From Patescibacteria group bacterium (GTDB lineage: Bacteria; Patescibacteriota; Patescibacteriia; 2-12-FULL-60-25): DNA of 41,681 nucleotides. The stretch is from NCBI GenBank assembly GCA_018830865.1, contig JAHJRN010000026.1, positions 1 through 41,681 of the forward strand, in the 5' to 3' direction. Shown here in pieces: positions 421 to 13,361 of the stretch. Numbering within the stretch: the first letter of the stretch is position 1; every line of letters begins with the position of its first letter. The position numbers and the translations under genes are program-made. The notes below the pieces were generated by a model. The model was given only the letters and a program-made list of their open reading frames with translations, did not search any database and had not been told where the DNA came from.

Positions 421-2757
421 ATGAGGAACGTTAAGGTTTTTGGAAGTTTTGTATTGCTTTCTGTCGTCTTGAGTTTTGTTGCGGTCGGTTCTGTATCTGC
501 CAGTTATCAACGAATCGCTCCTGGTGATGCCGTCACGTTAGGCGAATTCGTCTTCGATGACGACTTCGTCCCGACGACGACGCCATGCACGATCGGCATC
601 AACGATCCCTCGGATGCGGTCGTCATCCCTTCGACGACGGCCATGACCGCGAACAACGACGGTTGGCATTATTACGAGTACGTCACCGCGGGCAACGCGA
701 CGTCCGGCATGTGGCCTTCCGTCATGATCTGCGGGAGCGTGGTGAACGGCGACCTCGTCAAGGTGGACAAAAGCTTCATCGTCGATCCGGCGGTCTTATC
801 GACGAGTACGCTCAAGGCGGTGGTCGATGAAAGCTTGGAGACGGCGACGAGCAGTCTCGCTTCAGCGATCACGGCAGGGACGAATGCCGTGAACGCCAAT
901 ACCGATGCCCAGATCGCGAGCGTCTCCTCCTCGCTTTCCGCCACGATCCAATCCGCTTCGTCGAGCCTGTTCGCGTCGCTTCCTGCCGCGATCTGGTCAT
1001 TCAGCGGCCGCACGCTCACCTCCTTTGGGACGCTCGTGGCCGATACCGTGACGGCGGTCTGGAGCGCTAGCACGAGGACCCTCACGGGCTTCGGGACGCT
1101 CGTGGCCGATGTCTGGACAAACACGACCCGTACCCTGACCGGCGCCAATCTTGACTCCGGATCGTTGGCGACGTTGTCCGACGTGCAGACGGCGACGAGC
1201 AGTCTCGCTTCGGCGATCTCGGCAGGGACGAGCGCAGTGAACAGCAACACTGACACGCAGATCCTGAGCGCTTCCTCATCTCTTGCGACGCGGATCGACT
1301 CGGCGGTGAGCACGGGCTGGACGGTGACGCTGTCCGATTTTGGGCAGACGACGGTCAATACCGCGTATAAGGCGAAACTCCAAGTCCTCGATCATGGATC
1401 CATCCCGACGGACGCCGACGCCCTTCCGACGGTGGTCATCACCGATCCCGTCGGGACCGTCCAAGTACTGGCTGGCGTCATGACCAAGGACTCGGACGGG
1501 ACGTACAGCTACAGCTACAGCATCGGCGGAAGCGCGATCGGCGGCGTCTGGGAGACGGTCGTGTCGGCCGTCATCGGCGGCGAAACCGTCAGGCTTGTCG
1601 ATTACTGGTCCCTCTCCAGCTCACCGGCTGACGTTCAGATCATCGAAATCACGGACAAGGTCATCCCGACCATCACCGCCCATGTGAGGATCGACAACAT
1701 GGGAACGTCGGACAGCGACTTCTACTATGCGTATTGCATCGTGAGCAGCGAAGACAACGTCTGCGGAGGAGGGGATGATGTCGATTCCGGATCGGATACC
1801 GCGTATATCGTCGCCGGAAGCTTCCTGGACCTGTTCTTGACCTTGGATGACGTCCCGACGGCGGGAACGTATTGGTTCAAGGTCAAGGCACGCGCGTTGT
1901 CTGAACCCAATTGGGCGTCCTCGACGGAGCAGTTCATCGCGGAGTCCGGGACGACTCCGCCGCCGCCTCCACCGGACGGTGGCGGGGGTGGAGGTGGTGG
2001 AGGCGGCACGACCGGTTCGGATACGAAAGTCGTTTTTTCCGGCTGGGCATATCCGAACAGCAAGGTCATCCTGCTCAAGGACGCACAGATCGCGGCAAGC
2101 GTGTTTGCCGATTCCAATACCGTGTTCAGTATCACGCTCCCTGGTCTTTCGGGTGGCAGTTATGTCTTCGGTCTCTATGCTGAAGATTCATCAGGAAGAA
2201 GGTCGGCTCTCGTGACGTATCCGATCACCATCCTGACCGGCACCACGGTGTCCAGGACCGGTATCTTCATCACGCCGACCATCGCGGTCGATAAGAGCGA
2301 AATGAAGTCCGGGGAGCCGCTCACGATTTTTGGGTACGCGGCGCCCGAAGCGGATATCACGATCATGACATATTCAGCATCCGAATACGTCGGCAAAACG
2401 CAGTCCGCCGCGAGGGGCGCGTACGAATATCAGCTCGATACCGCCCAAATGCCGCATGGGCAGTACTACACCAAGGCGAAGGCAACGAAATCCGGCGTGA
2501 CGAGCCCGTTCAGTCAAGCCATTGGCTTTGTCGTGGGCACGGAAACGGTGGATATCGAACCGCCCGGCATCTGTCCGGGAAAAGCCGACCTGAACAGCGA
2601 CTGCCGCGTGAACCTGGTGGATTTCTCCATCGCCGCCTATTGGTATAAGCGTCCCTTGAGCGACGCCTTCAAGTTCTTGGAAGCGACCAAATTGAGCGGC
2701 GACGGCAAAGTGGACCTGATCGATTTCTCGATCATGGCGTATTATTGGACCGGCTAG
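421..2757 (+). CDS. Exported multidomain protein with C-terminal dockerin-like module
   Basis: This 778-residue secreted protein probably docks onto the cohesin proteins encoded just downstream. A signal peptide covers about residues 1-29 (hydrophobic core, then VSASY). Beta-rich Ig-like segments alternate with a Ser/Ala/Thr-rich region containing a duplicated block (DNA 841-950 and 1189-1298). A Pro-rich then Gly-rich linker lies near residues 513-530, followed by more Ig-like sequence. The last 60 residues resemble a type I dockerin: two Ca-loop/helix repeats, DLNSDCRVNLVD and KLSGDGKVDLID. The first loop has acidic or Asn ligands at positions 1, 3, 5, 9 and 12; the second has Lys at position 1. 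I chose ATG 421 over the in-frame TTG at 400 because it puts a short basic n-region before the signal core. No enzyme domain is recognised, so its partner or substrate is unknown. Confidence 0.85.
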   Translation: MRNVKVFGSFVLLSVVLSFVAVGSVSASYQRIAPGDAVTLGEFVFDDDFVPTTTPCTIGINDPSDAVVIPSTTAMTANNDGWHYYEYVTAGNATSGMWPSVMICGSVVNGDLVKVDKSFIVDPAVLSTSTLKAVVDESLETATSSLASAITAGTNAVNANTDAQIASVSSSLSATIQSASSSLFASLPAAIWSFSGRTLTSFGTLVADTVTAVWSASTRTLTGFGTLVADVWTNTTRTLTGANLDSGSLATLSDVQTATSSLASAISAGTSAVNSNTDTQILSASSSLATRIDSAVSTGWTVTLSDFGQTTVNTAYKAKLQVLDHGSIPTDADALPTVVITDPVGTVQVLAGVMTKDSDGTYSYSYSIGGSAIGGVWETVVSAVIGGETVRLVDYWSLSSSPADVQIIEITDKVIPTITAHVRIDNMGTSDSDFYYAYCIVSSEDNVCGGGDDVDSGSDTAYIVAGSFLDLFLTLDDVPTAGTYWFKVKARALSEPNWASSTEQFIAESGTTPPPPPPDGGGGGGGGGGTTGSDTKVVFSGWAYPNSKVILLKDAQIAASVFADSNTVFSITLPGLSGGSYVFGLYAEDSSGRRSALVTYPITILTGTTVSRTGIFITPTIAVDKSEMKSGEPLTIFGYAAPEADITIMTYSASEYVGKTQSAARGAYEYQLDTAQMPHGQYYTKAKATKSGVTSPFSQAIGFVVGTETVDIEPPGICPGKADLNSDCRVNLVDFSIAAYWYKRPLSDAFKFLEATKLSGDGKVDLIDFSIMAYYWTG
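841..1298 (+). repeat. Intragenic duplicated segment
   Basis: About 110 bp at 841-950 reappears at 1189-1298 (offset 348 bp, or 116 codons) with scattered substitutions. It encodes two copies of a TSSLASAI...NTD.QI block. Between them, GGGACGCTCGTGGCCGAT occurs twice (near 1027 and 1094). The changes keep the frame, which points to duplication within the gene. Confidence 0.8.
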
Positions 2758-2777
2758 CGGCACGCACAGAAGATCAT

Positions 2778-3671
2778 ATGAACCGACTCCGTCACCATCG
2801 TTTTTCCGCCCTCGTCCTCGCGTGTCTCTTCGTGTGTATCGCCGCTCCCGTCAGCGCGGCGGAATTCTATTTCGATGCTCCCAGTCAGCTCGGCATCGGA
2901 GACGTGTTCGAAGCGGCGATTTTCCTGAACACGGAGGATATCAACGCCGTCGGGGGGACGGTCGTCTTCCCGAGCGACGTCCTGCAGCTGACGGACATCC
3001 GGGAAGCGAATTCGATCATCAATCTCTGGGTCGAGAAGCCGACGCTCGTATCCGACGGCCAGATCGCCTTTTCGGGAATCACCCCAGGGGGATACCACGG
3101 TTCGCGCGGGTTGCTGTTGACGTTCGTCTTCACCGCAAAACAAGAAGGAGAGGGCGCCATCGAGGTCAAGGACGCGCAGGTCCTGCTGAACGACGGGAAA
3201 GGAACCGAGACCGCGCTTTCCATCTTTCCGCATCGATTCACGGTTTCCGGCACCCCTGGCGTCTTGACGGTACCTCCTGTGATCGACGGGGACCGTCCCG
3301 AATCGTTCGCGCCGGATATCTCGCATGACCCTAATCTTTTCGGGAATCAGTGGTTCGTTGTTTTTGCCACGCAAGACAAGGGAAGCGGTATCGACTATTA
3401 TGAAGTGAAGGAGGCGCGGCAGAAGATTTCGGGGATGTTCACGAAATGGACGACGGCGGAAAGCCCGTACGTCCTGCGGGATCGGGCATTGCGGAGCACC
3501 GTGTACGTGAAGGCGGTCGATAAGGCCGGCAACGTGCGCATCGAACGGATCGCTCCGCGGAACCCGCTTCACTGGTACGAAAACTACGAAATCTGGATCC
3601 TCATCGTCATGATTCTGTCCCTCATCGTCGCATCGAGCACCTTCGTATGGAGAAAACGCAACACAACGTAA
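2778..3671 (+). CDS. Membrane-anchored cohesin-domain protein
   Basis: This 297-residue protein has a signal peptide (ending near VSAAEF), a cohesin-like domain at about residues 30-160, an Ig/FN3-like segment with a conserved KAVDKAGN stretch, one C-terminal membrane helix (about residues 267-288) and a short basic tail (WRKRN). The cohesin call rests on the pattern of the family: an initial FYF strand, VGDVFEAAIFL, VVFPSDVLQLTDI, a middle INLWVEKP segment, and the final GLLLTFVFTAK and LLNDGKGT strands. I take ATG 2778, which gives a clean signal peptide; a TTG at 2745 would overlap the dockerin gene. The topology places the cohesin outside the cell and anchors it, suiting it to capture the upstream dockerin protein. 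Binding is inferred. Confidence 0.85.
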   Translation: MNRLRHHRFSALVLACLFVCIAAPVSAAEFYFDAPSQLGIGDVFEAAIFLNTEDINAVGGTVVFPSDVLQLTDIREANSIINLWVEKPTLVSDGQIAFSGITPGGYHGSRGLLLTFVFTAKQEGEGAIEVKDAQVLLNDGKGTETALSIFPHRFTVSGTPGVLTVPPVIDGDRPESFAPDISHDPNLFGNQWFVVFATQDKGSGIDYYEVKEARQKISGMFTKWTTAESPYVLRDRALRSTVYVKAVDKAGNVRIERIAPRNPLHWYENYEIWILIVMILSLIVASSTFVWRKRNTT

Positions 3672-5398
3672 GACGTGTATCGGTCGGCGGCGCGTTGCTT
3701 GGCGCGCTGTTCATCGTGTTCCCTGCGGTCGCGCAGGCGGCCACGATGTATTTCGCCCCTTCTTCCGGGACGTATGCGGTCGGCACGTCGTTCACGACGA
3801 GCATCTACGTCTCGAGCGCGGATCAGGCGATGAACGCGGCGTCCAGCATCGTGACGTTTCCTACGGACAAATTGGAAGTGGAATCGATTTCCAAAAGCGG
3901 ATCCATCTTCAGCCTGTGGGTCCTGGAACCTGGTTTTTCCAATGCTGCCGGCACGATCAATCTCGAGGGTATCGTCTTGAACCCGGGTTTCACGGGCAAG
4001 GGCGGAAAGATCCTGACGATCAGATTCAGGGCCAAGGCCGCGGGCAATGCCCCCGTTTCCTTTTCGTCCGGTCTGGTCCTGGTGAATGACGGAAAAGGAT
4101 CGAATATCCTGGCGGGGCTTGGAGGAGCCAACTTCACGATCAATCCGGTCAAACCCGGTGAGCCGGAGCCTGTCGTCACGCCGCCGAAAGAGCCGTCCGG
4201 CACGCCTGCAGGTCCTCAGATCCGTTCGTCGACGCATCCCGATCCGAACACGTGGTACGCACAGAACGTCGCGAAATTCGCGTGGGATGTGCCGAAAGAC
4301 GTGATCGGCGCGCGCATATCGATCGACAAGGATCCGTCCTCGATCCCCACGGAAACGTTGACGACACCGATCGACTCGAAAGAACTCACGGTATTGGGTG
4401 ACGGCGTCTGGTATTTCTCCGTCCGATTACGCAACGACAAGGGCTGGGGCGGCATCTCCCGTTTCAAGTTCCAGATCGACACGACTGGACCGTCTCTTCT
4501 GGAATTGAGCGAGGAACGGACGGATGCGACCGATCCGCGCGGGAGGTTCATCATCCGTGCAGAGGATGGGGCGTCCGGCATAGACCATTTCGAAGTCCGT
4601 ATCGCGAACGAAAGTCCGCAGATCTGGAAAGATGATGAAAGCCATAGGTACGAAACGCCCGTGTTGGCGCCGGGGACGTATACGCTGATCGTCAAAGCGG
4701 TGGACAGGGCAGGTAATTCATTGGAGAAATCAGCGGAATTCACGATCCAGCCGTTGGAGGCACCGGTCATCACCGATTATCCGACGGATCTTCGGAGCGG
4801 AGAGATCCTTGCCGTCAAAGGAACGACGGCATATCCGGGCGCGGAGGTCGACATCTATCTCCGATACGAATCGGACGAGCCCAAACGTACGAGCGTGAGG
4901 AGCGGTGAGGACGGCCGGTTCACGTTCGTCGCCGAAGATAGGGTCACAAGCGGTATCTATACCCTCTGGGCCGTCGTCACGGACGATCGCGGCGCAAAGA
5001 GCGGACCGAGCGAGAAAGTCACCATCGCGGTAGAGCGGCCCGTCTTCTTGCGGTTCGGTACATGGGCGATAGGATTCCTCTCGATCTTCATTCCGCTTCT
5101 CGCGCTGATCCTTCTCCTTATCTACCTTGCGTGGCATTGGTGGCATAAGTTCGCGATTCTTCGCAGAAAGGTCAAGAAGGAAATCAACGAGGCGGAACAA
5201 GCGCTCCACAAGGCTTTCGATGCGTTGAAAGAAGCTATCGGCGAGCAGATCAGGATGTTGGATCTGGTCAAATCGAAACGTGAACTCACCAAGGAGGAGG
5301 AAAGGATCATCAAACAGCTCAAGAAGGATCTGGACCACGCAGAGCGCTACGTCAGGAAGGAAATCGAGGACGTGGAAAAGGAAGTGAGGGAATCGTGA
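3647..5398 (+). CDS. Cohesin-domain protein with membrane anchor and cytoplasmic coiled coil
   Basis: This 583-residue protein overlaps the previous gene by 25 bp, so the two are probably co-translated. It has a signal peptide (through VAQAATMYF) and a cohesin-like domain at about 33-165 that is clearly paralogous to the upstream one (SLWVLEPGF and LVNDGKGSN match INLWVEKP and LLNDGKGTE). Ig-like domains follow at about 170-465, including a KAVDRAGN motif. A strong membrane helix lies near 476-498. The last 80 residues, rich in Lys and Glu with heptad spacing, should form a cytoplasmic coiled coil. That inner segment is unusual for a scaffoldin-type anchor and could couple the surface module to an inner partner. 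The ends of the gene look intact, and its stop lies inside a remnant of another gene. Confidence 0.85.
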   Translation: MEKTQHNVRRVSVGGALLGALFIVFPAVAQAATMYFAPSSGTYAVGTSFTTSIYVSSADQAMNAASSIVTFPTDKLEVESISKSGSIFSLWVLEPGFSNAAGTINLEGIVLNPGFTGKGGKILTIRFRAKAAGNAPVSFSSGLVLVNDGKGSNILAGLGGANFTINPVKPGEPEPVVTPPKEPSGTPAGPQIRSSTHPDPNTWYAQNVAKFAWDVPKDVIGARISIDKDPSSIPTETLTTPIDSKELTVLGDGVWYFSVRLRNDKGWGGISRFKFQIDTTGPSLLELSEERTDATDPRGRFIIRAEDGASGIDHFEVRIANESPQIWKDDESHRYETPVLAPGTYTLIVKAVDRAGNSLEKSAEFTIQPLEAPVITDYPTDLRSGEILAVKGTTAYPGAEVDIYLRYESDEPKRTSVRSGEDGRFTFVAEDRVTSGIYTLWAVVTDDRGAKSGPSEKVTIAVERPVFLRFGTWAIGFLSIFIPLLALILLLIYLAWHWWHKFAILRRKVKKEINEAEQALHKAFDALKEAIGEQIRMLDLVKSKRELTKEEERIIKQLKKDLDHAERYVRKEIEDVEKEVRES

Positions 5399-5990: not shown

Positions 5991-6548
5991 ATGAACCAGA
6001 CACAGCCGTTGGTCGGCGTGGGCGTCATGATCCTCAAGGGGGATACGGTCCTGCTCGCGAAACGGAGAGGGTCGCACGGAGAAGGGGAGTACGCGTTTCC
6101 GGGCGGACATCTCGAGCATCTCGAGTCCTTCGAGGCGTGTGCGCGACGTGAGACGACGGAGGAATGCGGCATCGAGATCGGGAACGTCCGGTTCCAAGTC
6201 GTCGCGAACATCGTCGGATACGCGCCGAAGCACTACGTCCACATCGGGCTCGTGGCGGATTGGGTCAGCGGCGAGCCGGAGGTCCTTGAACCGGAGAAAT
6301 CGGAGTTCTGGAGATGGTATCCTCTTGACGCGCCCCCAGACCCCCTGTTCGAACCATATCGCATCGCCGTCCAGGCCTACCGCGACGGAATCTCATATTA
6401 CGATACCGAACCGACGACATCACATGAGATACGACAAGCTCGTCCTGGACCTGATTCCGGACATCATCCGATTGAAAGGGGAGACACCCGTCACGCATAT
6501 CGCGGACGAAGAGGAATACGGTCGACGGCTGAAGGAGAAACTTCGTGA
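5991..6548 (+). CDS. Nudix hydrolase with read-through C-terminal tail
   Basis: The 185-residue product has a Nudix box, GHLEHLE followed by RETTEECG, matching GX5EX7REUXEEXGU apart from Thr at the hydrophobic U position. It should hydrolyse a nucleoside diphosphate linked to another moiety; the substrate cannot be told. Similar small Nudix proteins end near residue 140, shortly after the PLDAPPDPLF segment. Here the frame runs on for about 45 residues through the 5' half of the MazG-like gene (overlap 6424-6548). That tail is Arg/Gly-rich and low in structure, so I infer that the original stop was lost. The catalytic domain itself looks intact. Confidence 0.85.
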   Translation: MNQTQPLVGVGVMILKGDTVLLAKRRGSHGEGEYAFPGGHLEHLESFEACARRETTEECGIEIGNVRFQVVANIVGYAPKHYVHIGLVADWVSGEPEVLEPEKSEFWRWYPLDAPPDPLFEPYRIAVQAYRDGISYYDTEPTTSHEIRQARPGPDSGHHPIERGDTRHAYRGRRGIRSTAEGETS

Positions 6549-6630
6549 GGAGGTCGAGGAATACATCAAGGATGACCGCTTGCGCGATTCGGCCTATTTC
6601 GCTAGACTTCGCGCCATCTCAAACCTATGA
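6424..6630 (+). pseudogene. Truncated MazG-like/phosphoribosyl-ATP pyrophosphohydrolase-like gene
   Basis: A 68-residue frame starts MRYDKLVLDLIPDIIRLKG and includes GETPVTHIADEEEY and LREEVEEYIKDD. This is the N-terminal half of a family of about 100 residues of small all-alpha nucleotide pyrophosphohydrolases. The first EExxE metal-binding helix is present. The expected second helix (EELADILEV-type) and the rest are replaced by an unrelated 15-residue end, so the protein is probably inactive. The usual RDK near the start is also changed to LDL. The 3' end of the frame carries the likely secD promoter. Confidence 0.72.
6580..6608 (+). promoter_or_regulatory. Promoter candidate for secD-secF
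   Basis: TTGCGC (6580-6585) and TAGACT (6603-6608) are separated by 17 bp. The predicted start leaves a leader of about 12 nt before the secD ATG at 6627. The boxes lie inside the degenerate MazG-like frame. Confidence 0.4.
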
Positions 6631-8714
6631 AACAACAGGTCTCCGCAGGGTCAATCATGGGACGTTCGGCCGTGAAGAAGCGCGTCGCGCTGCTCGTGGT
6701 GCTCCTCGTCGTGACGGCGTCCGTCGCCTACCCGGCGCCTGCCGACAAGGTCCTCGCGACGGTCGGCGATTGGGTCGGGCTGAAGATTCCGTCCATCGAG
6801 AAGCCGTTCGTGCTCGGTCTCGACCTCCAGGGGGGGACGCGACTCGAATATTCGGCGGACCTTTCCCGCGTCGACGAAAGCGAACAACGGAGCGCCATGG
6901 ACGGCGTCCGCGACGTCATCGAACGCCGCGTGAACACCATCGGCGTATCCGAGCCGCTCGTCCAGATCGGACAGGCGGGGAAGGACTGGCGCGTGACCGT
7001 CGAGCTCGCGGGCATCCAGGACATCAGCGACGCCATCACGCTCATCGGCGAGACACCTATCCTCGAGTTCAAAGAGCAGAACACCGAGCCACAGCGACAG
7101 CTCACGGACGAGGAACGCGGCCAGATCGTCGAGGCGAACACCGCGGCCGACGCGAAGGCCGATGAGATGCTGAAGAAGGCACTCGATGACCCGGGTTCGT
7201 TCGAACAGCTCGTCGCAGAGACGACGGAGGACACGACGACCAAGGGGTCGAACGGCGATCTCGGGTTCATCAAGACCAATCCCGACTACCTCGAGATCTA
7301 CGACGCGACGAAGCAGAAGGACGCCGGGACCGTCTATCCGAACGTCATCACGACGCCGCGCTGGAATATCATCGCGAGGGTCGAGGAAGTGAAGGATGCG
7401 GGGACGGAGATCTTCGCGCACCACATCCTCATTCGGTATGCCGGCGCCACGAATTCCACGTCGACACGGACGAAGGAAGATGCACGTGCGCTCATAGAGG
7501 ATATCAAAGCCGGCGCCACGTCCGAGAACTTCATCGATACGGCCATGACGACCTCGGAAGAGCCGGGCGCGAACGAGACCGGCGGCGCGCTGGGCTGGTT
7601 CAGCATCGGCGACATGGTCAAGGCATTCGAGGATGCGGCATTCGCCCTGCCGGTCGACGGCATCTCGGACGTCGTCGAGACGCAATTCGGCTATCACCTC
7701 ATCTACAAGAGCGGCGAGCGTTCGGTCAACGACGTCCGTGTCCGTGCCATCTTCATCAAGAAGACGATGGAGTCGGACATCGTCCCGCCGCAGGAGGATT
7801 GGAAGAACACCGAACTCACGGGCAAGAACCTGAAGCGCGCGTATCTCGACTTCGACCCGAACATGGGTGCCGCGCAGGTCGCGCTGACCTTCGATGACGA
7901 AGGCACCAAGATGTTCGCGGACATCACGCGGCGCAACGTCGGACAGCCGGTCGCCATCTTCCTCGACAACCAGCCGATTTCCGTCCCGACGGTCGAGTCC
8001 GAAATCACAGGCGGCCAGGCCGTCATCTCCGGCAACTTCACCATCGTGGAAGCCAAGCTCCTCGCCCAGCGCCTGAACGCCGGAGCCCTGCCGGTGCCCA
8101 TCAACCTCATCGCTCAGCAGTCCGTCGGGCCGACGCTCGGACGCGATTCCGTCAACGCCTCGCTTATCGCCTCACTCTGGGGATTCGCGCTCGTCGCGCT
8201 CTTCATGCTCCTCCTGTACCGTCTGCCAGGTCTCCTCGCCATCCTGAACCTCGGGCTGTACGTGGTTGTCTCCCTCGCCATCTTCAAACTCGTACCTGTC
8301 ACGTTGACGCTCGCGGGCATCGCCGGCTTCATCCTCTCCATCGGCATCGCGGTCGATGCGAATGTCCTCGTATTCGAGCGGTTCAAGGAGGAAATCAAGC
8401 TCGGCAAGTCCCTTCGCAACGCACTGGAAGAGGCCTTCAAGCGCGCGTGGACATCCATCCGCGACGGCAACATGACGACGCTCATCTCCTGCGCCGTGCT
8501 GTACTGGTTCTCGTCGTCCATCATCAAGGGGTTCGCGCTGACGCTTGCCATCGGTATCCTGCTCTCGATGTTCTCGGCCGTGGTCGCGACCCGCACGGTC
8601 CTTCGCTACGTCTCAGGGTTCGGATGGGCGCAGCGGAATCCATGGCTCTTCCCGGGCACGAGGAAGCCCATGCCGACCGGGACCGACTCATCTGACCGAC
8701 CGACAACCGTATGA
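6627..8714 (+). CDS. secD: Protein translocase subunit SecD with inserted parvulin-type domains
   Basis: SecD works with SecF in the membrane to drive late steps of Sec export using the proton motive force. This 695-residue protein has an N-terminal membrane helix, the SecD signature DLQGGTRLEY near residue 70, and at the C-terminus the six-helix block typical of SecD (GPTLGRDSV, then SIGIAVDANVLVFERFKEE). Between the first P1-type segment and the second (AQVALTFDDEGTKMF) lies about 230 residues of insert. Its second half (about 268-375) is a PpiC/parvulin-like domain with AHHILIRY, GGALGWFSIGDMV and QFGYHLIYKSGE. The first half (about 155-262) looks like a diverged second copy (GDLGFIK, WNIIARVEEV). 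The insert would sit on the outer face and could fold substrates as they emerge. It overlaps secF by four bases. An ATG at 6657 is a possible alternative start. Confidence 0.95.
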   Translation: MKQQVSAGSIMGRSAVKKRVALLVVLLVVTASVAYPAPADKVLATVGDWVGLKIPSIEKPFVLGLDLQGGTRLEYSADLSRVDESEQRSAMDGVRDVIERRVNTIGVSEPLVQIGQAGKDWRVTVELAGIQDISDAITLIGETPILEFKEQNTEPQRQLTDEERGQIVEANTAADAKADEMLKKALDDPGSFEQLVAETTEDTTTKGSNGDLGFIKTNPDYLEIYDATKQKDAGTVYPNVITTPRWNIIARVEEVKDAGTEIFAHHILIRYAGATNSTSTRTKEDARALIEDIKAGATSENFIDTAMTTSEEPGANETGGALGWFSIGDMVKAFEDAAFALPVDGISDVVETQFGYHLIYKSGERSVNDVRVRAIFIKKTMESDIVPPQEDWKNTELTGKNLKRAYLDFDPNMGAAQVALTFDDEGTKMFADITRRNVGQPVAIFLDNQPISVPTVESEITGGQAVISGNFTIVEAKLLAQRLNAGALPVPINLIAQQSVGPTLGRDSVNASLIASLWGFALVALFMLLLYRLPGLLAILNLGLYVVVSLAIFKLVPVTLTLAGIAGFILSIGIAVDANVLVFERFKEEIKLGKSLRNALEEAFKRAWTSIRDGNMTTLISCAVLYWFSSSIIKGFALTLAIGILLSMFSAVVATRTVLRYVSGFGWAQRNPWLFPGTRKPMPTGTDSSDRPTTV

Positions 8715-9619
8715 AAATCGTCGCGAACCGCATCGTCTATTACGTCTTTTCGGGCGTGCTCGTCGGAGGGTCCCTCGTGGCGCTCGCGATCTTCGGCCTG
8801 AAGCAAGGTATCGATTTTACGGGAGGCTCCATCCTGTCCGCGCGTTTCGATGCCCGTCCGACGCCCATCGAGGTAGAGCAAACGCTCGCACCACTCGATC
8901 TCGGCGGTATCGTGGTTCAGCCTGTCGGCGAGAAGGACATGAATATCCGGCTCAAGGAGCTTGACGAGCCGACACACCAGCAGGTCATGGAGACGCTTCG
9001 GTCGAGCTACGGCACGGTCACGGAGCTCCAGTTCAATTCCATCGGACCAGCCATCGGCAAGGAGCTCCGCCAGAAGTCCACGCTCGCGCTCATTATCGTG
9101 CTCCTCGCCATTCTTGCATACGTCGCGTGGTCGTTCCGCAAGGTCTCGATGCCCATCCAGTCTTGGAAATATGGGGCTATCACGCTGTTCTCGGCCTTCC
9201 ATGACGTCATCGTACCGGTCGGTCTCTTCGCGATTCTCGGGAAATACGCGGGCGTGGAGATCGGGACGTCCTTCATCGCCGCCGTCCTGACCATCATGGG
9301 GTACTCCATCAACGACACCATCGTCGTGCTCGACCGTGTCCGCGAGAACCTGCAGCGGGGCGGGGGACTGTTCGAGGATATCGTGGAGCGGTCCGTCCAG
9401 CAGACCATGCTCCGTTCCCTCAACTCGTCCTTGACGACCATCCTCGCGATGGGCGCGGTCTATTTCTTCGGCGGCGCCTCCATCAAGGACTTCGCGCTCG
9501 CGCTCATCGTGGGCGTCGCTGTCGGGACCTATTCCTCCATCTTCATCATGTCGCCACTGCTCGTGACGTGGGACCGCTGGGACAAGAAGCGGAGGCGGTC
9601 GAATCAAGGAAAGAAGTGA
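8711..9619 (+). CDS. secF: Protein translocase subunit SecF
   Basis: This 302-residue SecF completes the SecDF export motor. It has an N-terminal membrane helix, the GIDFTGGSIL motif, a short periplasmic-type domain, and the five-helix block with MGYSINDTIVVLDRVREN and SLNSSLTTILA, which carry the conserved polar residues of the RND-like proton path. Its ATG overlaps the secD stop (ATGA), indicating translational coupling. Length and ends are normal. A strong hairpin follows at 9645, so the operon is probably just secD-secF. Confidence 0.96.
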   Translation: MKIVANRIVYYVFSGVLVGGSLVALAIFGLKQGIDFTGGSILSARFDARPTPIEVEQTLAPLDLGGIVVQPVGEKDMNIRLKELDEPTHQQVMETLRSSYGTVTELQFNSIGPAIGKELRQKSTLALIIVLLAILAYVAWSFRKVSMPIQSWKYGAITLFSAFHDVIVPVGLFAILGKYAGVEIGTSFIAAVLTIMGYSINDTIVVLDRVRENLQRGGGLFEDIVERSVQQTMLRSLNSSLTTILAMGAVYFFGGASIKDFALALIVGVAVGTYSSIFIMSPLLVTWDRWDKKRRRSNQGKK

Positions 9620-9644
9620 ACGGAAAGAGTGAAGACGAACCGAA

Positions 9645-9668
9645 GGACACGGTCGACCGTGTCCTTTT
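9645..9668 (+). terminator. Intrinsic terminator after secF
   Basis: GGACACGG, loop TCGA and CCGTGTCC form a perfect 8-bp stem followed by TTTT. It lies 25 bp after the secF stop. The full 20-nt sequence is also a perfect palindrome. Confidence 0.75.
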
Positions 9669-9684
9669 GAATATCCAGAAGACT

Positions 9685-9815
9685 CGTCGTTGCGAGGAGC
9701 GAGCCCGCGAGCGACGCGGCGATCTCACCGAAATCGATCGATCGGAGAATCAAGGTACAATTGCGGAGCCTGTCCCGAACGGATGTGAGGGATCGTCGGA
9801 CTCCTCGCAACGACG
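9685..9815. repeat. Palindromic intergenic element (element B)
   Basis: CGTCGTTGCGAGGAG (9685-9699) and CTCCTCGCAACGACG (9801-9815) are a perfect 15-bp inverted repeat around about 100 bp with weaker internal symmetry. The ends resemble the widespread 'CGTCATTGCGAGGAGCGA' type of bacterial intergenic repeat. There is no coding content. With the terminator and the promoter at 9857, it accounts for the 254-bp gap between secF and the next gene. Confidence 0.85.
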
Positions 9816-9856
9816 ATTCTCCGATATCCGTACCCTACCAACGACCGACGACCCCA

Positions 9857-9865
9857 TGCTATAAT
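9857..9865 (+). promoter_or_regulatory. Extended -10 promoter, probably leaderless
   Basis: TGC followed by TATAAT (9860-9865) is a perfect extended -10. Only eight bases separate it from the ATG at 9874, so transcription should start within a base or two of the start codon. There is no Shine-Dalgarno sequence. Confidence 0.7.
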
Positions 9866-9873
9866 CGACGCGC

Positions 9874-11196
9874 ATGGACTCCGTCGGCATCTGGCTCGAA
9901 CGTCTGATTTTCCTCGCGGGCAATTCCCCGTTCGAGGCGATGTGGTTCATTTTCTTCAGCGGAGGATGGATCGTCGTCCCCATCCTGGCATGGGTCATGG
10001 TCAAGACGATTTGGCTGTACAGCAAACAGACGGCGTACGACGCGAAGAAAGACTGGATCCTGCTCGCCATCGACGTCCCGCGCCTGCACGAACAGACACC
10101 ACGAGCCGTAGAGAACATCTTCGCGCATCTCGCAGGCGCACATTCGCCGGCGTCTTGGACGGAGAAGTGGTTCGAAGGCAAGACGCAGGACACCATCAGC
10201 ATGGAAATCGTCTCCATCGACGGTCACGTGCAGTTCCTCGTGCGCACGACACGCGGGTTCCGGGACCTGATCGAGGCGTCCATCTACGCCCAATACCCGG
10301 ACGCGGAAATCGTGGAAGTCGAGGATTACACCCTTCGCGTACCCTCCTTGTATCCCGACCGCGAGTGGGAAATGTTCGGCACCGAGATGATCCCGGTCAA
10401 ATCGGACGTTTTCCCGTTGCGAACCTATCCCGAATTCGAGGATAAGGTTTCCGGCGAGTTGAAAGACCCCATGGCGGTCATGCTCGAGAACCTTTCACGA
10501 ATAGGGCCGGGCGAGCAGGTCTGGTTCCAGATCGTGATGACGCCCATCGAACAGAAGGAGTTTCAGGTCAAGGTGGAAACGTTCGTAAAGAAACTTACGG
10601 GTCAGAAGGTGGAGGTAAAGGAATCCTTGCTCGAAAAAGCCGTAAATCTTCCTATCAAGGGCATGGGACTCGTGCTCGAGACCTCCGGCATCCTCGGCAC
10701 GCCATCGGTACCGCCGAAGAAGGAGATGCAGCCATTCAGCAAAATCTTGCAGATGTCCCCCGGCGAGCGTAAAGTACTCGAAGCGATCGAGGTCAAGGCG
10801 TCGAAGATCGTCTACACCTGCAAGATCCGGTTCCTCTACGTGGCGAAGAAGGGGGTGTTCAAGAAGCAGAAGACGGTGTCGCCGTTCGTCGGCGCCATCA
10901 AGCAGCTGAACACCAACGACCTGCAGTCGTTGAAGCCCGAGACGAAGCGCGTCGGGATGAATGCGACGCTTTGGTTCTTCAAGGAAAGCCGCAACAGAGA
11001 ACGCAAGCGGCGATTCATGTCGGCGTATCGGTCCCGGTCGAACTGGGTCGGGATGCCGGGATACACCCTCAACATCGAGGAACTCGCGACGCTATGGCAC
11101 TTCCCCATCTCGATGCAGTCGCGTCCTCCTCAGCTTAAGAAAACCGAATCGAAACGATCGGAGCCCCCCATCAACCTGCCGTTCGCCCCGTCGTGA
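9874..11196 (+). CDS. Orphan membrane protein paired with VirD4/TraD-like ATPase
   Basis: The 440-residue protein has one or two N-terminal membrane segments (about residues 20-45, MWFIFFSGGWIVVPILAWVM) and a long, probably cytoplasmic, mixed alpha/beta region. I do not recognise a named domain with certainty. It is encoded 44 bp upstream of the VirD4/TraD-like ATPase, and I recall such a pair being common in CPR genomes. The protein could be a membrane platform for the ATPase, by analogy with TraD or VirD4, which carry their own membrane helices; the ATPase here has none. The C-terminal tail is Pro/Lys/Ser-rich and likely disordered. Confidence 0.78.
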   Translation: MDSVGIWLERLIFLAGNSPFEAMWFIFFSGGWIVVPILAWVMVKTIWLYSKQTAYDAKKDWILLAIDVPRLHEQTPRAVENIFAHLAGAHSPASWTEKWFEGKTQDTISMEIVSIDGHVQFLVRTTRGFRDLIEASIYAQYPDAEIVEVEDYTLRVPSLYPDREWEMFGTEMIPVKSDVFPLRTYPEFEDKVSGELKDPMAVMLENLSRIGPGEQVWFQIVMTPIEQKEFQVKVETFVKKLTGQKVEVKESLLEKAVNLPIKGMGLVLETSGILGTPSVPPKKEMQPFSKILQMSPGERKVLEAIEVKASKIVYTCKIRFLYVAKKGVFKKQKTVSPFVGAIKQLNTNDLQSLKPETKRVGMNATLWFFKESRNRERKRRFMSAYRSRSNWVGMPGYTLNIEELATLWHFPISMQSRPPQLKKTESKRSEPPINLPFAPS

Positions 11197-11240
11197 CGAT
11201 GTCATCCGCACCTTGAACGTTCCTTTCTCCCTCACGGGCT

Positions 11241-13361
11241 ATGCCCATTCCCTACAACCACGATCACGAAAACGAGATATCCCTCTTTGCGGCAGTGAAT
11301 TTCCGGAACCAGTTCCGGCGTTTCGGAATCAAGACCGACGACCGGCGTCGGCACATGTATGTCTTAGGGAAGACCGGCGTCGGCAAGACGACCCTGCTCG
11401 AAAACCTGTTCATGTCCGACGTGCTCGCGGGCCACGGATGCTGCTACATCGACCCGCACGGCGACACGGCAGAAAAGCTCCTCGACTTCATCCCGTCGAA
11501 TCGTATCAACGACGTCGTCTATTTCAACCCGGCGGACCTCGACTATCCTGTAGGGTTCAATATCCTCGAGACCGCGAGGGAGGAACAGAAGCATCTCGTG
11601 GCTTCGGGCCTCATGGGCGTCTTCAAGAAGATCTGGCCGGACGTGTGGAGCGCTCGCATGGAGTACATCCTCCTCAATTGCGTGCTGGCATTGCTCGATT
11701 ACCCGGGCGCGACGCTCCTCGGCATCAACCGTCTGCTCGTCGACAAGGAGTACCGTTCGAAGGTCGTGGCCAAGATCAGGAATCCCATCGTCAAGACCTT
11801 TTGGCTCGCGGAATTCACGTCCTGGTCCGAGAAGTACGCGACCGAGGCCATCGCACCCGTGCAGAACAAGGTCGGGCAGTTCCTCTCGGCCTCCATCATC
11901 CGAAACATCGTCGCGCAGGTGAAATCCACCGTCAATCCACGCGAGATCATGGACGAGGGCAAGATTTTCATCGTCAACCTATCGAAAGGGAAAATCGGCG
12001 AGGACAACATGAAGCTCCTCGGCGGCATGATCGTGACGAAGATCCAACTCGCGGCCATGGAACGTGTGGACATCAGGAACGAGGATGACCGTCGCGATTT
12101 CTATCTGTTCGTCGACGAATTCCAGAATTTCGCGAATCAATCCTTCGCGTCCATCCTCTCCGAAGCGCGCAAGTACCGTTTGAATCTGACGGTCACGCAC
12201 CAGTACATCAAGCAACTTGCGGAAGAAGAGGTCGCGGACGCCATCTTCGGCAACGTAGGGACCATCGCGTGCATGCGTATCGGTGGCGAGGACGCGGCGT
12301 TCCTTGAGACGGAATTCGCGCCGACATTCACCCCCGAGGACCTCGTGAACCTACCGAAGTACCAGATGTACCTCAAGCTCATGGTGGACGGCGTCTCGAC
12401 CGCGCCATTCTCGGCGACAACGCTTCCTCCTATCTCGAACCGCACGGGGAGCGAGCCCAAAGTCATCGCGGTGTGTCGAGAGCGGTATGCTGAGCCGCGG
12501 GCGATGATGGAGGAGAAGATCCTGCGGTGGAGCGGCATGGAAGCGGTGGGTGCGCCGGCGGGACTGACGTATCCGGAGATCCTGACGACGGACGAGAAGG
12601 CGATGGCAGAGGAGGTGGGAAACCTGAAGCCGACGCCATCCATTGAGGAGGTCGCGGGGGATGCCGAGAAGATGGACGAGGAAACGGAGTATCTTCGCAT
12701 CTCACCGGAGCGTCTCTCCGCTATATCAAAACCTCCACAGACGAAGAAAGAGAAACCGAAGTTCAGCCATACATGCACGCGGTGCGGGAAGACATGGGAC
12801 ATGCCCATCAAGCTCGACCCGACGAAGCCGATGTATTGCGCGGAATGTCTGCCGCTCGTGAAGGAGGAGCGAAAAGTGAAGAAGGCGGTCATGAAGGCGG
12901 TGACGAACGGGCCTATCGACGGCGACGAAGCCGTCGTCATAGAGGACACCGGACTGGCGAATGAACGTGCGCCGATGAAGCTCGGGGCCTTGGACGACCG
13001 TAAACCCAAGCCACCGACACCGTCGAATCGACCACGGATCATCGGTGAACGGAAACCGCTGCCGATTGAGACGTTCAGTGGGAGCATCAAAATCGTGACG
13101 TCGGCCGACACCGATAAGGAATTAAGCCTGATGGACGAGCTGAAACGCGTAAAAGGGAAGAATATCGAGACGGACAAGCGAAAACTTGGCGCCGCGGATC
13201 AGCCGCTCGTCGCGAAGGCGTCAGATGACGGCGACCCGATCGCCCCGAGGAGCACGACCGTCTTTCGGAAGACCGCCAGCTCCGTGAGGACCGCATCGGA
13301 TATCGGGTCGGTGAAGTCGATGAAGCCCCTCAAGCCCGGCCACGGCGTGACGTTCGATTAG
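11241..13361 (+). CDS. VirD4/TraD-family (type IV secretion coupling-like) ATPase with C-terminal zinc ribbon
   Basis: A 706-residue P-loop ATPase of the VirD4/TraD/TraG-HerA class, whose relatives pump DNA or protein across membranes. The Walker A motif GKTGVGKT is at residues 43-50, and a Walker B-like FYLFVDEFQNF near 287-297 is followed by the sensor-like LTVTHQYIKQL. The AHGD-like CYIDPHGDTAEK near residue 75 is typical of the class. After the motor, around residues 511-540, lies a zinc-ribbon-like CTRC...CAEC motif, then a low-complexity charged tail. No membrane helix is present. Other type IV secretion genes (VirB4, relaxase) are absent from the window, so the role may be unrelated to conjugation. 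A terminator follows at 13370. Confidence 0.88.
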   Translation: MPIPYNHDHENEISLFAAVNFRNQFRRFGIKTDDRRRHMYVLGKTGVGKTTLLENLFMSDVLAGHGCCYIDPHGDTAEKLLDFIPSNRINDVVYFNPADLDYPVGFNILETAREEQKHLVASGLMGVFKKIWPDVWSARMEYILLNCVLALLDYPGATLLGINRLLVDKEYRSKVVAKIRNPIVKTFWLAEFTSWSEKYATEAIAPVQNKVGQFLSASIIRNIVAQVKSTVNPREIMDEGKIFIVNLSKGKIGEDNMKLLGGMIVTKIQLAAMERVDIRNEDDRRDFYLFVDEFQNFANQSFASILSEARKYRLNLTVTHQYIKQLAEEEVADAIFGNVGTIACMRIGGEDAAFLETEFAPTFTPEDLVNLPKYQMYLKLMVDGVSTAPFSATTLPPISNRTGSEPKVIAVCRERYAEPRAMMEEKILRWSGMEAVGAPAGLTYPEILTTDEKAMAEEVGNLKPTPSIEEVAGDAEKMDEETEYLRISPERLSAISKPPQTKKEKPKFSHTCTRCGKTWDMPIKLDPTKPMYCAECLPLVKEERKVKKAVMKAVTNGPIDGDEAVVIEDTGLANERAPMKLGALDDRKPKPPTPSNRPRIIGERKPLPIETFSGSIKIVTSADTDKELSLMDELKRVKGKNIETDKRKLGAADQPLVAKASDDGDPIAPRSTTVFRKTASSVRTASDIGSVKSMKPLKPGHGVTFD

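Follow-up and report, generated by a model that had tools for sequence, protein, structure and literature searches.

The window analysed here, a stretch of 41,681 nucleotides from a contig of a Patescibacteria group bacterium with a very small genome, carries at positions 421-5398 three forward-strand genes arranged head to tail in the order D, C1 and C2. Their predicted products combine a single dockerin with two cohesins, distributed as follows:

421..2757, + strand: gene D, ATG at 421 and stop at 2757; 778 aa, predicted to be secreted; signal peptide, MG2-like stretch, Ser/Thr/Ala-rich repeats, Gly-rich linker, two Ig-like domains and a C-terminal dockerin
1420..1563, + strand: N-terminally located MG2-like stretch of D (1.2e-5, under the curated cut-off)
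2023..2544, + strand: two Ig-like beta domains of D (AlphaFold2 pLDDT mostly >90; Big_6 in 49/61 D proteins)
2584..2754, + strand: dockerin module of D, at the very end of the protein, with repeat loops at 2587-2622 and 2689-2724
2778..3671, + strand: gene C1, 297 aa; signal peptide, cohesin, Ig-like (OmpL47-type) domain and C-terminal membrane helix
2847..3251, + strand: cohesin domain of C1 (family profile and AlphaFold2 fold)
3647..5398, + strand: gene C2, 583 aa; signal peptide, cohesin, Ig-like domains, membrane helix and helical tail
3728..4153, + strand: cohesin domain of C2 (family profile and Pfam matches in relatives)
4583..5000, + strand: Ig-like domains of C2 (Big_13, 5.8e-12)
5042..5395, + strand: membrane helix of C2 (about 5042-5145), then a coiled-coil tail predicted to be cytoplasmic

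Elsewhere in the window, positions 1-260 consist of a tandem/inverted dispersed repeat, inside which the contig starts and which matches about 20 other places in the genome. Positions 6627-8714 hold SecD, within which lies a PPIC-type (parvulin) rotamase domain (9e-31), and then SecF; positions 11241-13361 encode a TraD/TrwB-type ATPase-like protein (3.8e-10).

The C-terminal part of D reads ...GKADLNSDCRVNLVDFSIAAYWYKRP...KLSGDGKVDLIDFSIMAYYWTG and contains the duplicated 12-residue calcium loop plus helix of Dockerin type I (PF00404), with a second repeat that lacks its position-1 ligand. The first repeat, DLNSDCRVNLVD (2587-2622), bears ligand-type residues at loop positions 1, 3, 5, 9 and 12, exactly as an earlier sequence-only reading of this DNA had stated, and the second, KLSGDGKVDLID (2689-2724), has lost the Asp at loop position 1. 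This Asp is kept in 29 of 51 relatives, so that its loss is found in a sizeable minority to which D belongs. Taken alone, D scores 15.1 bits against Dockerin_1 (cut-off 22.9). The model is matched by 53 of the 61 D proteins and passed above its cut-off in 35 of 96 relatives' genomes, and a profile of the D core retrieves solved dockerins as its top PDB matches (1.4e-5), which establishes homology to PF00404 at the family level. The AlphaFold2 model of the D core (pLDDT 91.5) shows two beta domains and, after them, three helices (216-224, 232-241 and 250-261); these modelled helices are as expected for a dockerin. Among the Foldseek matches listed for this model, Ig tandems and similar structures dominate, so the dockerin fold of D rests on secondary structure together with sequence. 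The 61 D proteins match 15 families, namely dockerin, Ig-like, fn3, MG2 and DUF4215 besides some that occur more rarely; none of the 15 is a glycoside hydrolase family.

The two downstream proteins escape direct detection: the Pfam Cohesin model matches neither C1 nor C2, a PF00963 search of the own genome finds nothing, and phmmer of C1 against the PDB returns no match. Read without the family profiles, the empty PF00963 search would have led us to discard the finding wrongly; the missing Pfam match is a matter of detection threshold and not of a defining property, and relatives pass the model. C2 relatives occur in 34 of the 96 genomes searched (own genome counted), and one of them, from genome G072, lies above the Cohesin cut-off with 40% identity to residues 17-366 of C2. 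PF00963 is matched by 23 of the 38 cohesin domains of the family, and a profile built from all 38 ranks solved cohesins first (5g5d, 6.1e-6), placing the family as a whole among the homologs of PF00963. The AlphaFold2 model of C1 (pLDDT 94.9) adopts the cohesin beta-sandwich, and its best 15 PDB fold matches are all cohesins (2vo8, TM 0.81 on the target), including Clostridium perfringens modules and the non-cellulosomal cohesin of Archaeoglobus fulgidus; C2 is homologous to C1 (4.9e-19). The cohesin and dockerin identities proposed from the letters alone are thus upheld by orthologue profiles against the PDB, Pfam matches in relatives and the fold of C1.

The same reading had both cohesin proteins fixed to the membrane by a C-terminal helix. 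This holds for C1, whose helix is terminal, but not for C2, where the helix is followed by a conserved tail of ~80 residues predicted to form a coiled coil. Such a tail could suggest a docking sensor, in which binding of D to C1 and C2 would be reported inward through the C2 tail and signalling, more than display, would be the main output. The conservation of the tail is consistent with this, as are the nearly constant pairing of C1 with C2 and their fusion at one locus; however, no output domain of any kind (kinase, sigma, anti-sigma or other) was found in the C2 tails examined, nor was a regulatory gene seen to recur as part of the cassette, and we consider signalling an unlikely main function. 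One C2 relative (L127, 6599-8827) is lengthened to 742 aa: after the membrane helix come a linker rich in Pro and Ala and what may be a lysozyme-like domain, which would be odd if the tail were cytoplasmic; Pfam shows no lysozyme-like domain in this extension.

A scan of species genomes yielded 319 relatives, from which we kept the best 79 distinct loci; their titles name mostly Parcubacteria-type groups of Patescibacteria, with many given just as 'bacterium' and a few odd labels. The assignment of the window to the CPR (Patescibacteria) is supported. Gene order was counted at the 71 loci whose first cohesin gene is preceded by 300 bp or more: at 68 of them a dockerin gene lies at most three genes upstream of the cohesins on the same strand, immediately upstream in 58 cases (median gap there 5 bp), and in 63 of these 68 the dockerin reaches the last residue of D. 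Of 380 genomes drawn from across the phylum, 96 score above the Cohesin cut-off, and a C2-type relative is found in 49 of the 50 genomes with a strong D core vs 169 of all 380. C1 and C2 are nearly always paired in relatives. At locus L155 (6790-9387) they are fused in a single 865-aa frame. At four other loci (L160, L163, L167 and L168) an extra gene just after the cassette encodes a single chain that has both a cohesin and, at its C-terminus, a dockerin; these proteins of ~250 aa (11399-12157 in L168) have an N-terminal membrane helix.

In the genome of the window itself, D is the only dockerin and C1 and C2 are the only cohesins found, so that the idea of a self-contained system holds as regards the pairing of dockerin and cohesin. 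This description fits the relatives less well, as their operon is larger and also encodes, upstream, a WxLIP-like membrane protein and small secreted proteins rich in beta structure.

Dockerins and cohesins also vary together. F-type dockerins, with a Phe after the calcium loop, accompany Trp-type cohesins in 80 of 85 cassettes by pattern, and L/I-type dockerins (Leu or Ile) accompany cohesins lacking the conserved Trp in 10 of 10; both subtypes are present in the window's own family, where 12/12 cassettes are concordant. Five cassettes broke the rule by regular expression, several of which proved on listing to contain the Trp. Pairwise distances of dockerins and first cohesins correlate with r 0.75, and the partial r is 0.39 after removal of the adjacent Ig domains of D, compared with 0.17 the other way round. 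At the level of these sequence distances, dockerin and cohesin co-vary beyond what the adjacent Ig domains explain, and part of this co-variation is shared ancestry.

The probable contact surface is likewise conserved. In Ruminococcus flavefaciens, dockerin positions 11 and 15 together with cohesin Ala-38 and Leu-79 dominate binding, which is weakened by mutation (PMC5429695). The corresponding positions 11/15 of the D dockerin are Val/Ile and Ile/Ile and are conserved in the family, and in the HMM alignment Ala-38 falls on a conserved Ala within an Asn-Ala motif in 47 of 53 C1 proteins. An alternative is that the partners do not bind each other at all, the dockerin being a structural calcium cap and the cohesins holding glycans, an S-layer or other partners. 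Non-cellulosomal modules are known to vary and the second calcium loop of D is degenerate, both of which would fit; yet the synteny at 68/71 loci, the single copy number, the matched switching of subtypes and the conservation of known interface residues all argue against it and make it rather improbable.

Cohesins and dockerins are known outside cellulosomes. The non-cellulosomal cohesins of C. perfringens and A. fulgidus (2vo8, 2jh2, 2w1n, 2xdh), which have the same fold and are among the best PDB matches of C1, are parts of glycoside hydrolases or of an archaeal protein, whereas C1 and C2 are small proteins, predicted to be membrane-anchored, with a dockerin gene adjoining. With cellulosomal pairs such as R. 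flavefaciens CohScaB3-Doc1a (5m2o), D, C1 and C2 share the domain families, the hydrophobic dockerin positions 11/15 and the Ala of the cohesin platform, but they comprise one dockerin and two membrane cohesins, with no enzymes, scaffoldin or carbohydrate-binding module. A cellulosome-type enzyme scaffold, to which only the common domain families would point, was rejected as extremely improbable: the cassette is devoid of glycoside hydrolase, carbohydrate-binding module and multi-cohesin scaffoldin, and the absence of a glycosidase, already remarked from the sequence, is confirmed.

A parallel in genomic setting is offered by the WxL gene clusters, in which the WxLIP protein has the architecture DUF916-DUF3324-TM (PMC10599100). 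Of 51 loci, 36 have a WxLIP-like membrane gene no more than four genes upstream of D, and at 27 it is the direct upstream neighbor; the profile of its product matches the solved Enterococcus EfmWxLIP1 (2.1e-4) and, weakly, PF06030. As in the WxL clusters (PMC10599100), genes for secreted surface proteins adjoin that of a WxLIP-like membrane protein in related operons. By contrast, no WxL domain was found in the neighbors scanned, so that these are not WxL clusters despite the WxLIP-like protein; a dockerin and cohesins replace the WxL proteins, and the hosts are Patescibacteria instead of Lactobacillales/Bacillales. The window's own genome has one WxLIP-like copy, which in the assembly is on a separate contig (C30) from D, beside the genes of a beta-rich protein and of a surface protein with fn3:

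6285-11983 of locus L184 (G000:C30): beta-rich protein, WxLIP-like membrane protein and 1164-aa fn3/CarboxypepD_reg surface protein

Contig C30 ends in repeated sequence, and the window begins in a dispersed repeat. As a check on whether C30 might join the window, homologs of the large surface protein encoded at its end were looked for upstream of D in relatives; the N-terminal beta part alone was matched, at 3 of 51 loci.

These neighbors raise the alternative that D, C1 and C2 serve as assembly components of a WxL-like platform (peptidoglycan or S-layer), the working end of which would be the upstream WxLIP-like and beta proteins. The frequent location of the WxLIP-like gene upstream of D and the match to EfmWxLIP1 speak for such a platform, while the position of this gene on another contig in the window's genome and the absence of WxL domains from the neighbors scanned speak against it, leaving it, in our estimation, a doubtful explanation. 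The WxLIP-like protein, which many relatives encode next to the cassette, is probably part of one envelope assembly with D, C1 and C2.

We therefore favor, with good though not full confidence, a non-cellulosomal cohesin-dockerin docking operon that fixes the non-enzymatic protein D to C1 and/or C2 at the cell surface. D, C1 and C2 would be made together and exported, C1 and C2 being retained in the membrane with their cohesin domains presumably outside. The C-terminal dockerin of D would then engage the cohesin of either membrane protein or of both, in a manner that may depend on calcium and in which contact is probably made by the hydrophobic residues at dockerin positions 11/15 and, on the cohesin side, by the Asn-Ala platform. 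Once docked, D would display its variable, non-enzymatic N-terminal beta modules at the surface. The likeliest role of such a docking operon is in building or holding surface structures, or in adhesion. Only as a tentative possibility do we extend this to a core system of surface assembly shared by a large part of the Patescibacteria, where a dockerin protein clipped on two membrane cohesins might, jointly with a WxLIP-like platform, attach the small cells to hosts or build their surface layer.

We found no description of a D-C1-C2 operon in the open literature searched, and no paper in that literature that mentions cohesin together with Parcubacteria; as far as these open papers go, the operon looks undescribed. 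A dockerin-domain protein, SEML1_0315, has been reported as essential in the epibiont Southlakia epibionticum (PMC10633639). Like D, it belongs to the Patescibacteria and carries a dockerin domain, a likeness based on its description, but no link to cohesin genes has been reported for it (PMC10633639). The operon may give meaning to this essential protein of a cultured epibiont, although as a lead only. It touches two open questions, namely by what means Patescibacteria attach to other cells and what function cohesin-dockerin pairs have outside cellulosomes, and it offers for both a conserved single-copy dockerin, two candidate membrane receptors and natural variants with matched subtypes, making the binding, specificity and localization of D, C1 and C2 directly testable.
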